From the IMG/VR virus record IMGVR_UViG_3300009481_000145, positions 1 to 20,342 of that record: a DNA stretch of 20,342 nucleotides. One strand, given 5' to 3'. A program made the translations under genes and the position numbers. The number at the start of each line of letters is the position of its first letter. Positions within the stretch are counted from its first letter, which is position 1. Positions 12,825-20,342 of this stretch are shown here, in pieces. The DNA comes from a virus. The notes beneath the pieces are model-generated. The model did no database searches. It was not told where the DNA came from and worked only from the letters and a program-made list of their open reading frames with translations.

Positions 12825-14540
12825 CTAATATCCAAACGTCTGTGTCTCCGCATCAAATTTTAAAAACACTTTGTCCCTTCGGATTGGTCCGTTACGACGC
12901 TTCGTAATCTGCACCAGATATTTTGGTTCTGTCCCAGCAGCTTTGCCCCTGCCATACCAGTGGCCGAACATGATCATGTCTGCATCGTTCTCAAGTTGTC
13001 CCGACTCCCGCAGCATGTCACTCTTAAAGTCGATCTCTTCCATGCGTTCGACCTCTCGCGATACCTGACACAGTGCAAGCACAGCTACGTCATACTTACG
13101 TGCAATGTGTTTGATCCTTTGCGAGATCTCGGTCACCACCTCATAACGACCGGTGACTTTGTCACTGCGTAGCAACTGGAGGTAGTCGATAATCACAAGC
13201 TGAATCTTGTGCGAGTTAGAGTAGAGTCGTATCGACTGCTCAACATCTGCAATGCTGGCAACACCCTGATAAAAGAACTTTGTATTGCGTAGCTTTGATT
13301 CGATTAAAGGAAGGACCGCGTCCTCGTCCCATGTGGCTTCCTCACCACCGACATACCGCATGACAAGGCGACGACCTATCTCAAACTCAGACATCTCAGC
13401 GTTGAGCATGAGCACAGGTATCCCCTGCTCTGCATTGTGCAGGCCATACTGCAATGCGAATGCACTCTTACCACCGCCTGGTCTTGCACCGAAGATCCCC
13501 ATCTCTCCCCGACCGAGGCCATCAATGGCTCGGTCGAGAGGTTCAATGCCGGTACGAATATACTGCTGACCTGATCGCCGTTTAAAGAACTGCCTGACAC
13601 AGCCAATGGCTAGTGTCTCACCCTTCACTTCACTCGTGCGTTTAGCAACTGACTTGTAAGCATTATCAATGGTGAGCTTGATCCACTCGTCGCTCTTCTT
13701 ATAGCCTTCCTCATCACACCAATGCCGCAGTGCATCGAAGATCTCTTCAGTTGGTATGCGTTGATAGACAGCTTCACATGCAATCTGAAATACGATACTC
13801 GACCGAGAGTTATCTTTACTAGTTTCCCTGGGTATTCCCCGCCACCGGAGAGAGAGGTCGGAGTTTTCAACTGCAAGCAGCTGCTTCATCCGACCACTCA
13901 AACCGCCAGCAGGTTCTGGTGGAGCTGTTGATGTACCAAGCTTATGACAGAACTGTTCGATCTCTTCTTTGCTAACGGTCGTGCAGTCAGCAAACTCGAT
14001 ATCGCACCAGTCACTATCAGGATCGACAAACCTACTGCGATTCCAAAAAGGATACCGCACCAGATTTCCAAGTCCCTTGCCCTTAAGCGTATCCTGACGG
14101 GGATACACTTCTCGGAAATCGATCTTTAGTACACCATCAATCGCCGCCCAAAATCGCCTGATTAGAAAAGCAGGCACAGGCTCTGAGAAGAAGAGCCAGA
14201 CGTGAGCACCATAACCTGAAGCACTGATCTCAAGGCAGGGATCAAACTCCTGTTCCTCTAAGAAGTAATAGAGTTTCTCTGCCTTGTCCCTCCATGCCGG
14301 ATCAGGTTGATCGGGATGGTTATCAAAGTCAATGCAGCTGCATAAGACTGTTGAATCAGGTCGCATTAAATAGAAGCCGAAGCACGTCGTTCCTTCAACG
14401 TGTTCGGCAAGCAGCATCTCTTCAGTCATTGGTTTATGCACAGGCCTGAAGGTGGAACCCTTGGGCTGCGCAGCAATGACATCACTTCTTCCATTGAAGT
14501 ATTTGAGAATCTGCTTAGCGGTATCAGTACTCATTGTCAT
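12825..14540 (-). CDS. Fused archaeo-eukaryotic-type primase and DnaB-like replicative helicase
   Basis: With the ATG at 14540 the protein is 571 aa. Residues about 30-200 form an archaeo-eukaryotic primase core of the type found in TOTE systems: CIDFDNH supplies D71 and D73, SASGYGAHVWLFF supplies H113, and LGNLVRYPFWN follows. Residues about 230-305 are a helical linker resembling PriCT. Residues about 325-571 are a RecA-like SF4 helicase domain with Walker A GARPGGGKS (351-359), Walker B LVIIDYLQLL (D452), the ALCQVSREVE sensor and the RESGQLENDADMIM arginine-finger region. One polypeptide should therefore prime and unwind, as T7 gp4 does, but with an unrelated primase. The start is uncertain: the frame is open to 14621 and no strong ribosome binding site is seen before 14540 or 14534. 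Confidence 0.88.
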   Translation of the reverse strand: MTMSTDTAKQILKYFNGRSDVIAAQPKGSTFRPVHKPMTEEMLLAEHVEGTTCFGFYLMRPDSTVLCSCIDFDNHPDQPDPAWRDKAEKLYYFLEEQEFDPCLEISASGYGAHVWLFFSEPVPAFLIRRFWAAIDGVLKIDFREVYPRQDTLKGKGLGNLVRYPFWNRSRFVDPDSDWCDIEFADCTTVSKEEIEQFCHKLGTSTAPPEPAGGLSGRMKQLLAVENSDLSLRWRGIPRETSKDNSRSSIVFQIACEAVYQRIPTEEIFDALRHWCDEEGYKKSDEWIKLTIDNAYKSVAKRTSEVKGETLAIGCVRQFFKRRSGQQYIRTGIEPLDRAIDGLGRGEMGIFGARPGGGKSAFALQYGLHNAEQGIPVLMLNAEMSEFEIGRRLVMRYVGGEEATWDEDAVLPLIESKLRNTKFFYQGVASIADVEQSIRLYSNSHKIQLVIIDYLQLLRSDKVTGRYEVVTEISQRIKHIARKYDVAVLALCQVSREVERMEEIDFKSDMLRESGQLENDADMIMFGHWYGRGKAAGTEPKYLVQITKRRNGPIRRDKVFLKFDAETQTFGY

Positions 14541-14630
14541 ATGTTTTAAAATGAGGTGAGGGCCAGCAGATCGCGCTGCGGATTGCGACCTGAACGCTTG
14601 GGACAAAGCTCCAGCCCCCACCCCTCTTTA

Positions 14631-17199: not shown

Positions 17200-17227
17200 T
17201 TGACATATAACGCTAGGTCGATATGTT
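17200..17227 (+). promoter_or_regulatory. Candidate rightward promoter divergent from the replication promoter
   Basis: TTGACA at 17200-17205, a 16-base spacer, then TATGTT at 17222-17227 (4/6 match). It points toward the small gene at 17392. The -35 sequences of both divergent promoters share TTGACATAT. A perfect inverted repeat, AATGCA-caca-TGCATT (17241-17256), lies just after the expected start site and could be an operator. A weaker alternative promoter, TTGTAA-17-TAATAT, lies further downstream, at about 17255-17283. Confidence 0.45.
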
Positions 17228-17313: not shown

Positions 17314-17372
17314 TAACGCTACGCACGACCAAAGCTGCGTAACAAATTGAACACTAACGCTACGCACGACCA
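17314..17372 (+). repeat. Pair of perfect 18-bp direct repeats in the control region
   Basis: TAACGCTACGCACGACCA occurs at 17314-17331 and again at 17355-17372, 41 bases apart start to start, close to four helical turns. The first copy is also the right half of a perfect inverted repeat, GTAGCG-ataa-CGCTAC (17307-17322). The second copy lacks the left arm. They lie just upstream of the small plus-strand gene and look like binding sites for a regulator or replication initiator. Confidence 0.7.
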
Positions 17373-17391
17373 GAATGGAAGGGACAACCTT

Positions 17392-17637
17392 TTGGCCGCT
17401 AATCAAACAGAGCCGTACTCCGCACTCATGCTGCGAGAGATCTCAGACCGAATGAAACTGCAAGCCGAAAGTCTGCTTGCGATCTCCGTGAAGATGGAAG
17501 CAAACTCAGTCGAATCTATCGACGTGCTCAACTCACTGGAGTTCAGAAAGAACGGTGTGAAAAAAGTAGCAGCCTTTGTACGGGGTGCTGAAGATGCTTG
17601 GTACAACAGCCAGGTAACAAGTCAGATCGAAGACTAG
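17392..17637 (+). CDS. 81-aa hypothetical protein with TTG start
   Basis: The frame is open from 17347, but the TTG at 17392 has GGAAGGG eight bases upstream and places both 18-bp repeats outside the gene. An ATG at 17428 has no ribosome binding site. The protein is helical and charged (MLREISDRMKLQAESLLAIS, then SVESIDVLNSLEF), probably a coiled-coil or helical bundle, with a VAAFVRGAEDAWYNSQ end. No domain was recognised. The position beside a control region is typical of a lysogeny or superinfection regulator, but no helix-turn-helix is evident. Confidence 0.5.
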   Translation: MAANQTEPYSALMLREISDRMKLQAESLLAISVKMEANSVESIDVLNSLEFRKNGVKKVAAFVRGAEDAWYNSQVTSQIED

Positions 17638-17640
17638 CTC

Positions 17641-17669
17641 TTGACAGAGCCAGTCTCAATAAGCACAAT
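17641..17669 (+). promoter_or_regulatory. Candidate promoter of the predicted ncRNA
   Basis: TTGACA at 17641-17646 (perfect -35), 17-base spacer, CACAAT at 17664-17669 (4/6 -10). It starts directly after the stop of the preceding gene. An imperfect inverted repeat at 17632-17655 (ten-base arms, one mismatch) surrounds the -35 box and may be an operator. Expected initiation is near 17676. Confidence 0.55.
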
Positions 17670-17675
17670 AGCAGT

Positions 17676-17883
17676 ACAATGAGAAGCGCATAGAAATGCC
17701 CGCTCATTTGCTGGCCGCCCATTAAGGCGGTCCAGCTTAGATGATAAGCTGATTCATCTAATCGATTCATATATATAAAGCACACCGGTCTGCGCAGGCA
17801 GATCAACAAATCAATTTAAGAATTGATACTCCTAAATTGAGAAACTGGCACAGGCAGACTTCGGTTTGCCTGTGTTTTTTTTT
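17676..17883 (+). ncRNA. Predicted structured phage small RNA of about 208 nt
   Basis: Between a good promoter and a strong terminator there is no convincing gene but a run of hairpins. H1 (17710-17736): ten pairs with one bulge. H2 (17737-17761): perfect eight-pair stem directly abutting H1. H3 (17787-17804): seven pairs closing on GCAG. H4 (17810-17827): seven pairs, ATCAATT/AATTGAT. H5: the terminator. TCAATTTA at 17811-17818 can also pair with TAAATTGA at 17833-17840, so H4 has a competing eight-pair alternative. CAGGCAGA occurs in both H3 and the terminator stem. The only open frames are a few codons long. I do not recognise an Rfam-type family. A regulatory RNA is an inference. Confidence 0.6.
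17849..17883 (+). terminator. Strong intrinsic terminator with UUCG tetraloop
   Basis: Eleven-pair stem (17849-17859 with 17864-17874, one G-U pair), loop TTCG at 17860-17863, followed at once by nine Ts (17875-17883). This is a textbook Rho-independent terminator on the plus strand, and it separates the ncRNA from the operator-controlled gene downstream. Confidence 0.93.
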
Positions 17884-17960: not shown

Positions 17961-17989
17961 TTGAACCTGTTAGAACAGGTTCATAGTAT
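17961..17989 (+). promoter_or_regulatory. Promoter with a perfect 22-bp palindromic operator in its spacer
   Basis: Perfect arms TGAACCTGTT and AACAGGTTCA (17962-17971, 17974-17983) flank the two bases AG. They fill the space between a -35-like TTGAAC (17961-17966) and a -10-like TAGTAT (17984-17989), 17 bases apart. The expected start, near 17996, lies 18 bases before the next ATG. The layout is that of a repressor-controlled promoter. The repressor gene is not obvious in the window. Confidence 0.65.
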
Positions 17990-18013: not shown

Positions 18014-18247
18014 ATGTATCGATTGCAAATGATTGAGAAGAAATCTCGCACTGTCTTTTTTGAGCGACTGTTTACAACTGAAGCTGATGCGGAATCATTT
18101 GGTGAAGAGTTGGAAAAACATAACAGTCGTTTTACGATTCGGATTCGTAAGCTTGGACCAATTCCATGGCTCCGGTTTGGCTTGAGCCGTGTCAGGCTCA
18201 AGCCACTCAGATGGTTGAAGCTTACCCATAAGTCTGCTGAAAGCTGA
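18014..18247 (+). CDS. 77-aa hypothetical protein behind the palindromic operator
   Basis: ATG at 18014 with GTGAG five bases upstream. The protein begins MYRLQMIEKKSRTVFFERLF, continues TTEADAESFGEELEKHNSRF and TIRIRKLG, and has a basic C-terminus. The pattern suggests a small alpha/beta fold. No DNA-binding motif or known family was recognised. The last 26 bases overlap the convergent integrase gene, and a strong hairpin (18178-18205) lies within the coding sequence. A lysogeny-module accessory role, such as excisionase or immunity factor, is possible from position but not shown by sequence. Confidence 0.55.
   Translation: MYRLQMIEKKSRTVFFERLFTTEADAESFGEELEKHNSRFTIRIRKLGPIPWLRFGLSRVRLKPLRWLKLTHKSAES
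18178..18205 (-). promoter_or_regulatory. Perfect 11-bp hairpin just downstream of the integrase stop
   Basis: TGGCTTGAGCC and GGCTCAAGCCA (18178-18188, 18195-18205) flank six bases. On the minus strand it begins 17 bases after the integrase stop codon. No T-run follows on either strand, so it is not a plain terminator. Placement resembles the sib site of phage lambda, where an RNA hairpin 3' of int controls message stability. It may also serve as a bidirectional block between convergent genes. Confidence 0.55.
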
Positions 18248-19703
18248 GTGCAAGGTCGAGTCGCTGGTCATGGTTGTAGTTGTCTGTCATCTGCTCGGTG
18301 AGATGACCGAGGACGGCTTGAGCAGAGGTCTTGTCAGCTAGCTTGACGATCTCAGTGTTTCTTCGATGCCGCAGTTTATGCGGCATAAAGTTTTTCACAC
18401 CAACCTTTTGTGCAAGTCTTTGTGTTGCGTGCCGATAGGAATCTTTGTTGTATTGTGGGTTTAAGTTTGATTGAATGCTTTCATAAACCTCTATCCAGCT
18501 TTTGCATTTAGACCTGGGTTTCTCATAGGATGTAAGCGTATAAACTTTTGAACGTGTAGTACTTAATTCATCTATGACTTCGATCGTACAGCCACAACCT
18601 CGCAGTCGTTGAATAGAACTAAAATATCTGGGGCAAATTGACTTCAGTTCCGCAGTGGTTGCGTTTCCTTTTTTCAGTCGCTGGTAAATTTTATAACTCT
18701 TATGCGACTTGTTGATACCTGTGTGTATGTTTTTCCTTGCACGCTTTGCCTGATCATACCTACCGTAGGAGGTTGCAGCCGCAGGATTAAAGATAAACTC
18801 GTGACCGCGATCTGGTCTAGTGTTCTCATAGTTCATCAACGCTTCGACAGCAATTGGTCCGATCACTATTGATAACTTATCGAGATGTTTTTTCGTCTTA
18901 TGCTGCGAAGGCGTGTAGACAAAGCACTGGTGTGATTCGTAATAAGACTTATCGATCTGATCCCATGTTATGTCTAAAAGATTTCCACTTCGCATGCCAG
19001 TGTACCTGTGCAGGATCAACATCGTCCGAAGCGTTGGAGATGCTGACTCAATCATCAGCGCGATGTCATCCTCTAACACTGCCTCACGCTTCACACGCTG
19101 CTTCGCATGTGCAGGCACACGTATCTCATTTAATGAGTTGTAGATTCCTACATCACATAGATTCCTTTCTGCTCCGAATGCAAACATTCGTTTCACAACT
19201 CTCACTTTATTCTTTATCGTTTGGCGTGCATTATTTGAAACGCTGATAAGCTCATCCATGATTTCGATCAAAAATCCTGATCGAAACTGATCGCATGGCA
19301 GGTTTAAGTACGGTTCAATTATCCCCCCCACCTCACGCAAAAGTGAAAGATAACGTGCGTCCCGCTCTTTGACTGACCGAACTTCAGAGTTTGCATCTCT
19401 GAAGTTCGTTTCGTAATCAGTGAATCTGTAATACAACTCCCGCACCGAAATGTTCAGCGACTCATCAAACCTCAAACCTGATTTGAATTTCGTTTCTGTG
19501 CAGGCATCTCGACGTTTGAGTTTTTCAAAATGTTCCCACATTTCTTTACTGTCGAAGTCGCCTTCCAAATAAATACATTTGCGAATGATCTTACCTTTTG
19601 AATCTCGCTTTGAATTACCTTCATCATCAACCAAAGGAATTCGGATATATCCTTTGCCAGATCGTTTTTCAAAACGCGGTTTTATCTTTTCAGTTATTCT
19701 CAT
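18222..19703 (-). CDS. int: Tyrosine recombinase / phage integrase
   Basis: Start at 19703 (493 aa), with AAGGA upstream; the frame is open further to 19793 without a ribosome binding site. Catalytic residues are all visible: R238 in TGMRSGNLL, K269 in SQHKTKKH, H442 and R445 in PHKLRHRRNT, H467 in LGHLTE, and the nucleophile Y476 in TDNYNH. Residues about 1-80 are a basic arm-binding-like region, and about 85-200 a core-binding helical domain. The protein is longer than lambda-type integrases because about 120 residues lie between K269 and H442. Part of that insert (about 335-395) reads as a winged helix. It should catalyse site-specific integration and excision at the adjacent tRNA-derived site. 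The 3' end overlaps a convergent gene by 26 bases. Confidence 0.95.
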   Translation of the reverse strand: MRITEKIKPRFEKRSGKGYIRIPLVDDEGNSKRDSKGKIIRKCIYLEGDFDSKEMWEHFEKLKRRDACTETKFKSGLRFDESLNISVRELYYRFTDYETNFRDANSEVRSVKERDARYLSLLREVGGIIEPYLNLPCDQFRSGFLIEIMDELISVSNNARQTIKNKVRVVKRMFAFGAERNLCDVGIYNSLNEIRVPAHAKQRVKREAVLEDDIALMIESASPTLRTMLILHRYTGMRSGNLLDITWDQIDKSYYESHQCFVYTPSQHKTKKHLDKLSIVIGPIAVEALMNYENTRPDRGHEFIFNPAAATSYGRYDQAKRARKNIHTGINKSHKSYKIYQRLKKGNATTAELKSICPRYFSSIQRLRGCGCTIEVIDELSTTRSKVYTLTSYEKPRSKCKSWIEVYESIQSNLNPQYNKDSYRHATQRLAQKVGVKNFMPHKLRHRRNTEIVKLADKTSAQAVLGHLTEQMTDNYNHDQRLDLALSFQQTYG

Positions 19704-19731
19704 TTCAGTGATTCCTTTTTTGGGGTTCACC

Positions 19732-19760
19732 GAAAAGTGATGTAAAAAGTTGAAAAGTGA
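19732..19760 (+). repeat. Phased GAAAAGTGA repeats, candidate integrase arm sites
   Basis: GAAAAGTGA occurs at 19732-19740 and 19752-19760, exactly 20 bases apart, with a partial copy (AAAAGT at 19745-19750) between. They lie in the 5' leader of the integrase gene and about 70-100 bases from the tRNA-derived site. Helically phased short repeats beside attP are typical arm-type sites for integrase or excisionase. They could equally be operators for integrase expression. Confidence 0.5.
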
Positions 19761-19783
19761 CGGGGAAAACCACACCCTACCCA

Positions 19784-19812
19784 CTGGCAACATCGCCTTC
19801 TATGCTTACAAT
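19784..19812 (+). promoter_or_regulatory. Candidate promoter reading into the tRNA-fMet fragment
   Basis: CTGGCA (19784-19789, 4/6 to the -35 box), 17-base spacer, TACAAT (19807-19812, 5/6 to the -10 box). Initiation is expected near 19819, about 13 bases before the tRNA 5' end. It would supply expression to a host tRNA rebuilt by integration at this site. Confidence 0.5.
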
Positions 19813-19924: not shown

Positions 19925-20342
19925 TTACTCATGTAATCCTTGATGGTCCACAGTTCTACTGATCGTTGAGATCATTGTCGAGATCGATTTACGATCATAC
20001 CTAGCTTGCGGTGATCGCTTCTTAAACGCATCGACATCATAGTCTTGATCGACCAATCTGTTTCTACGATTCGCAGACTTAATCGTTGATGCTATTCCGT
20101 TATGAGTAAACGGATTGCTCTTACGGTTTCGATAGCCTAGATCGTTAAGCTCCCGTGCAATCGCACCAAAGCTGGCACCTTCTGATCGACGTGTTTGCAT
20201 GTAATTCAAACAGAGATTCTCAGTCGGCTGAACGATTAACTTATTGGAATTCAAACTGGCACGCATCAAACCGTAAGGTGTGTTGCCCGTGATCAGACCG
20301 CGATCGCGCCGCCAGTCGAGAGCACGTTTGGTGTTCTCAGAG
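19925..20342 (-). CDS. C-terminal part of a serine recombinase (truncated by window edge)
   Basis: The minus-strand frame is open through the window edge. The apparent start near 20269 is internal. The visible 138 or so residues begin SENTKRALDWRRDRGLITGN and then TPYG, which matches the long E-helix and the T/P-F/Y-G turn that links the catalytic domain to the DNA-binding domain of resolvase/invertase-type serine recombinases. Then come EGASFGAIARELNDLGYRNR and NPFTHNGIASTIKSAN, the recombinase-type helix-turn-helix region. The remainder is basic and Ser-rich. The catalytic Ser lies outside the window. No 3' coding neighbour lies between it and the tRNA fragment. Confidence 0.8.
   Translation of the reverse strand, partial: SENTKRALDWRRDRGLITGNTPYGLMRASLNSNKLIVQPTENLCLNYMQTRRSEGASFGAIARELNDLGYRNRKSNPFTHNGIASTIKSANRRNRLVDQDYDVDAFKKRSPQARYDRKSISTMISTISRTVDHQGLHE

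Follow-up and report, generated by a model that had tools for sequence, protein, structure and literature searches.

A candidate structured small RNA from the control region of a probably temperate, uncultivated phage

Several phage small RNAs are known to function in lysis-lysogeny control, namely OOP and aQ of lambda, sar of P22 and c4 of P1 and P7 (PMC12197685). A further set, comprising VpdS of VP882, PreS of lambda, and AgvB and AsxR of EHEC, represents the Hfq-type small RNAs of phages that act in trans (PMC12197685, PMC4104026). The locus that we describe here resembles the first set in being a short noncoding RNA unit situated in the control region of an integrase-carrying phage. In OOP a promoter and a terminator delimit 77 nt that contain no gene, and the present unit is likewise composed of a promoter-like site and a terminator without a gene. 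Small RNAs of the Hfq type share an outline in which an intrinsic terminator with a U-tail is combined with a single-stranded AU-rich stretch; the unit too displays a U-tail along with an unpaired AU-rich stretch.

Genomic setting of the unit

The unit is found in the viral record IMGVR_UViG_3300009481_000145, of which the stretch analyzed here, hereinafter the window, comprises 20,342 bases. The phage is known from viral contigs, and the bacterial virus that carries the RNA unit is uncultivated and probably temperate. The plus strand of the window carries virion and lysis-side genes, and the minus strand a replication/recombination block coding for a PD-(D/E)XK superfamily nuclease, a Sak4-like annealing protein, a DnaB-type helicase with a primase domain and a cytosine methyltransferase. 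Positions 12825-14621 encode a single phage protein in which an archaeo-eukaryotic-type primase (TOTE-type AEP, PF22548) is fused to a DnaB helicase, a fusion that was matched by no record of the phage collection with 80% coverage at E <= 1e-20. Between the plus- and minus-strand gene blocks lies the control region, with divergent promoter-like sites at 17200 (rightward) and 17148 (leftward). Rightward of these are encountered, in order, a 96-aa ORF, the RNA unit, a 77-aa ORF (ORF18014) and the gene for a tyrosine integrase (minus strand, 18222-19793), which points left toward the RNA unit and has its gene end at 18222. This arrangement bears out the lysogeny/control setting that a preliminary description of this DNA had proposed for the unit. 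Adjoining the integrase gene is a 114-aa ORF (19925-20269), possibly a fragment, that weakly matches the 'Recombinase' domain of serine recombinases (PF07508).

The 96-aa ORF (plus strand, 17347-17637) is delineated at its maximum length, with a TTG at 17392 being a possible start; its product belongs to no family and is predicted, with low confidence, to adopt a helical fold. A gap of 4 nt separates its stop codon from the downstream -35 box of the unit and, since no terminator is met ahead of 17847, its mRNA must also contain the RNA unit as 3' UTR. The preliminary description had seen no gene in the unit, but made no mention of this second status. The start of the 96-aa ORF is flanked by an exact 18-bp direct repeat, TAACGCTACGCACGACCA (17314-17331 and 17355-17372, spacing 41 bp), which is mostly retained in the one relative of this phage considered below; these are possible operator or replication repeats. 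On the other side of the unit, the 77-aa ORF (plus strand, 18014-18247) begins 130 nt downstream. Its protein is predicted to adopt a beta-beta-alpha-beta fold and yielded no family and no significant PDB match, its best viral matches being uncharacterised small proteins. Upstream of this ORF a perfect dyad, GAACCTGTTAGAACAGGTTC (17967-17986), is lodged between weak -35/-10-like boxes (TTGAAC-17-TAGTAT), and the corresponding stretch of the relative contains another dyad, TTCAGTT-N11-AACTGAA; it looks like an operator that has been exchanged between the two phages.

Promoter-like site, fold and terminator

The promoter-like site TTGACA-17-CACAAT, which is present on the plus strand at 17641-17669 just as had been reported, would place the transcription start of the RNA unit near 17676. 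Chance readily produces sites of this quality, with 14 observed against 7.8 expected in 4.8 kb, and hence this site taken alone is weak evidence. At the opposite end lies an intrinsic terminator (plus strand, 17847-17882), whose stem (17847-17876) is capped by a UUCG loop and followed by a T run. It had earlier been described as an eleven-pair stem with a UUCG loop and nine Ts; these elements are present, but the stem is longer, extending to 13 pairs with G-U pairing included. We define a strong terminator class by a stem with 11 or more pairs and, directly after it, eight or more T in nine positions. The terminator of the unit is the sole example of this class on either strand of both the 20-kb window and the 36-kb relative, and none was encountered in 60 shuffled windows.

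The RNA unit thus delimited is about 208 nt long (17676-17883) and is predicted to form five hairpins plus the terminator. The minimum-free-energy fold of the plus strand includes hairpin I (17678-17708), which had been missed by the preliminary description, as well as three that it had listed, namely hairpin II (GCUGGCCGCC...GGCGGUCCAGC, 17710-17736), hairpin III (UUAGAUGA...UCAUCUAA, 17737-17761) and hairpin IV (GGUCUGC-GCAG-GCAGAUC, 17787-17804). An AU-rich 25-nt linker (UCGAUUCAUAUAUAUAAAGCACACC, plus strand, 17762-17786) between hairpins III and IV is unpaired in this fold and offers a candidate pairing or chaperone site. Hairpin V can be formed in two ways on the same strand: its lowest-energy fold is stem B (UCAAUUUA/UAAAUUGA, 17811-17840), and the second-best is stem A (17810-17827), which is 1.5 kcal/mol weaker, the whole-fold energies being -74.8 kcal/mol with stem B versus -73.3 kcal/mol with stem A. 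The pairing at 17810-17827 had originally been taken as the main form and that of 17811-17818 with 17833-17840 as its alternative; the former is indeed foldable, but the supposed alternative is the best fold. The accompanying suggestion of a two-state fold is energetically possible with a gap of this size, and both stems are possible in the relative too.

The predicted fold of 17676-17883 is more stable than those of all 200 shuffled sequences (z -6.5), and upon removal of the terminator it again surpasses 200 of 200 shuffles (z -5.5), as against a z of -4.1 for the minus-strand copy of the unit. With stability corrected for G+C content, the RNA locus ranks first among 1008 scan windows over 20 kb, both strands being considered. 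On its own strand the unit has no internal ORF exceeding nine codons, in agreement with the earlier statement that it holds no gene. Fold stability and the lack of an ORF, together with the lack of an Rfam match (see below), support the view that this is a discrete structured noncoding RNA. Seen against the general features of phage small noncoding RNAs, there is no protein-coding ORF in the unit, and a promoter-like site and a terminator on one strand frame a stable fold, although the promoter-like site alone does not stand clearly above chance.

Conservation and searches for further members

Among the collections searched the unit was found in one relative, IMGVR_UViG_3300025128_000147 (36,030 bases), which was first reached via the 96-aa protein and then by every other successful route. 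Not one of the 168 bp between the -35 box and 17807, a stretch that takes in hairpin IV, is changed, and the promoter-like site, hairpins I to IV and the linker are each identical in the two phages; the relative also has the same three 10-of-12 promoter-like sites. By contrast, the flanking noncoding DNA on the two sides is 9.5% and 10.1% different, the 96-aa ORF differs by 5.8% (with mostly synonymous changes and a protein that is 97% identical) and the 77-aa ORF by 6.1% (with a protein that is 90% identical). This local contrast between an unchanged unit and diverged flanks favors the action of selection. The replication genes of the two phages differ by just 1.4%, and equally long identical runs are present elsewhere in these phages, the 168-bp run being the 24th longest genome-wide; hence, the argument rests on the local contrast and not on the length of the run.

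The differences that the unit does show in the relative fall in 17808-17840, i.e. in or beside hairpin V, apart from one T in the tail. Stem B is retained in the relative as UCAAUUUUG/UAAAAUUGA, where matched insertions in its two arms add one U-A pair and an A-U pair has become G-U, while stem A can also be formed there with a loop that is one longer. Compensatory change in relatives had been set in advance as a test of the RNA, and what was recovered in this respect is a single supporting event, in hairpin V, from only two sequences; moreover, each of the insertions sits in a short run of U or A, a context in which slippage readily occurs. The integrase of the relative is different, although the two phages are otherwise 95-98% identical, and the break in similarity at the 3' end of the 77-aa ORF indicates that integrase modules were swapped at this point.

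No family reached its gathering score when the window was scanned with Rfam (release 15), as anticipated by the preliminary description, which had recognized no known RNA family. The best sub-threshold match was to L20_leader (RF00558), with 26.6 bits against a gathering score of 58.7; it involves mainly the terminator hairpin, and no ribosomal-protein gene follows the unit here. Comparison of the unit DNA with phages and plasmids yielded short chance-level matches only. DNA patterns for hairpin I, hairpin II, the linker and the terminator recovered no relative in viral_contigs beyond IMGVR_UViG_3300025128_000147. The hairpin II pattern matched 77 further loci in this collection; a covariance model search of 18 of these gave one chance-level match, and blastn against all 77 gave one 33-bp match (locus L007), which is a partial copy of the palindrome. 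In genome_contigs an 18-base pattern picked out 21 loci, none of which matched the covariance model, and the neighboring proteins detected the same single relative in viral_contigs and none in genome_contigs. When 369 genomes from the class to which one marine gammaproteobacterium belongs were searched, the covariance model likewise found no RNA copy and an exonuclease query found one weak nuclease match, but these negatives mean little because this class was only guessed to be that of the host. For the phage group as such no close relative was found among 50,697 public phage records. The unit is best filed as a new candidate RNA family with two members so far.

Possible functions, alternatives and known phage RNAs

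We consider the unit to be probably a real regulatory small RNA. With regard to its mode of action we lean, if only modestly, toward a structured phage small RNA of about 208 nt with its own promoter and strong terminator, which doubles as a 3' UTR and acts in trans by base pairing. Under this proposal a promoter of the sigma-70 type, placed directly behind the 96-aa gene, would start the primary transcript and the very strong intrinsic terminator would end it; the RNA may perhaps also be released by processing from the longer transcript of that gene. The rigid set of hairpins would protect the RNA while exposing single strands, namely the 25-nt linker and the loops of hairpins III and V, which could then pair in trans with phage or host mRNAs, and an RNA chaperone would probably bind the U-tail and the AU-rich stretch. 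We infer that the unit is transcribed and that it binds a chaperone, pairs in trans and has a role in lysis-lysogeny control, the last three by reasoning from its position and from known phage RNAs (PMC12197685).

The Hfq-type features, i.e. the U-tail and the AU-rich linker, are present in the unit, and a scan of the phage start regions for pairing with the RNA gave nothing above the level of chance, with the longest loop-target match (9 bp) being typical of shuffles; the target may be a host mRNA. Pairing of the linker with the start of the 77-aa ORF (-14.4 kcal/mol) was equalled by 18% of shuffles and is reduced to -11.1 kcal/mol in the relative, and was accordingly attributed to chance. 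The start region of the methyltransferase, the apparent best target, was set aside, as this pairing needs hairpin IV to be opened and the start codon is doubtful. Cis-antisense action of the OOP, sar or aQ type would call for a known control gene on the opposite strand; the unit is antisense to no annotated early gene, and no credible gene is found opposite 17676-17882; a minus-strand ORF at 17543-17809, which partly overlaps the 96-aa gene, was judged spurious. We also view as very improbable a version in which hairpin V switches between the near-isoenergetic stems A and B on binding a partner, making the unit a sensor in the lysogeny decision or a protein-binding scaffold, and thereby a new class of phage RNA.

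The dual position of the unit raises the question of whether it is a structured 3' UTR and nothing else, with hairpins that serve to stabilize and terminate the message for the 96-aa protein but with no independent RNA and no function in trans. That mRNA must indeed reach about 17882, given the stop codon 4 nt before the -35 box and the lack of an intervening terminator, and the rightward promoter-like site at 17200 upstream of the gene is kept in the relative. However, 200 nt with five hairpins exceeds the needs of termination, and the -35 and -10 boxes are unchanged in the relative, even if the promoter score does not stand out clearly from chance; on the whole we regard this explanation as unlikely, though less so than the other alternatives. 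We find it distinctly improbable that the unit is a cis-acting leader, whether attenuator or riboswitch, controlling read-through into the 77-aa ORF. The strand and gene order are the same in both phages, and the occurrence of CAGGCAGA in both hairpin IV and the terminator makes an antiterminator pairing conceivable, one that is for a short while the optimal fold as the growing transcript reaches 17866-17870. Yet in the full-length RNA the one antiterminator fold assessed is less stable than the terminated fold by 26 kcal/mol, and the 77-aa ORF has its own upstream stretch, including the perfect dyad, with a sequence that is different in the relative.

The retroregulation of the integrase via RNase III in lambda, centered on sib, provides an outline parallel for another kind of element, wherein leftward read-through transcripts complementary to the RNA would become RNase III targets, so that the unit would be an antisense or retroregulatory element for the integrase. 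The integrase gene does point left to the unit, ending at 18222, the minus strand is free of a strong-class terminator, and the minus-strand copy of the unit folds well (z -4.1); but the integrases differ between the two phages while the RNA is unchanged, and the 77-aa ORF and about 340 bp intervene, which leaves this a very doubtful explanation. Least probable of all in our estimate is an element acting at the DNA level, for example a replication origin or an attachment site, with inverted repeats that fold as a side effect. Such repeats fold on both strands, and the 18-bp direct repeat lies 300 bp upstream, but the unit is exactly bounded by a promoter-like site and a terminator, both of them directional, and the plus strand folds better relative to shuffles than the minus strand (z -5.5 against -4.1). 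An attachment site in particular is unlikely, since the relative has another integrase beside the unchanged RNA.

Returning to the trans-acting small RNA that we favor, its comparison with described systems reveals both likeness and difference. OOP, aQ, sar and c4 each have an established pairing partner among the phage mRNAs (cII, Q or ant), whereas no target was found for the unit; in length it is similar to aQ (220 nt), whereas OOP, sar and c4 are about 70-80 nt. VpdS, PreS, AgvB and AsxR are roughly 50-90 nt long, making the unit, at about 208 nt, two to four times longer, and it is likened to them by outline and not by sequence. By itself the unit leaves the current view of how such RNAs work unchanged. 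Provided that it is transcribed, it would represent a small RNA from a phage group whose close relatives were not found among the public phage records, located where lysis-lysogeny control is usually set, and would be a testable candidate for addition to the short list of characterised phage regulatory RNAs.
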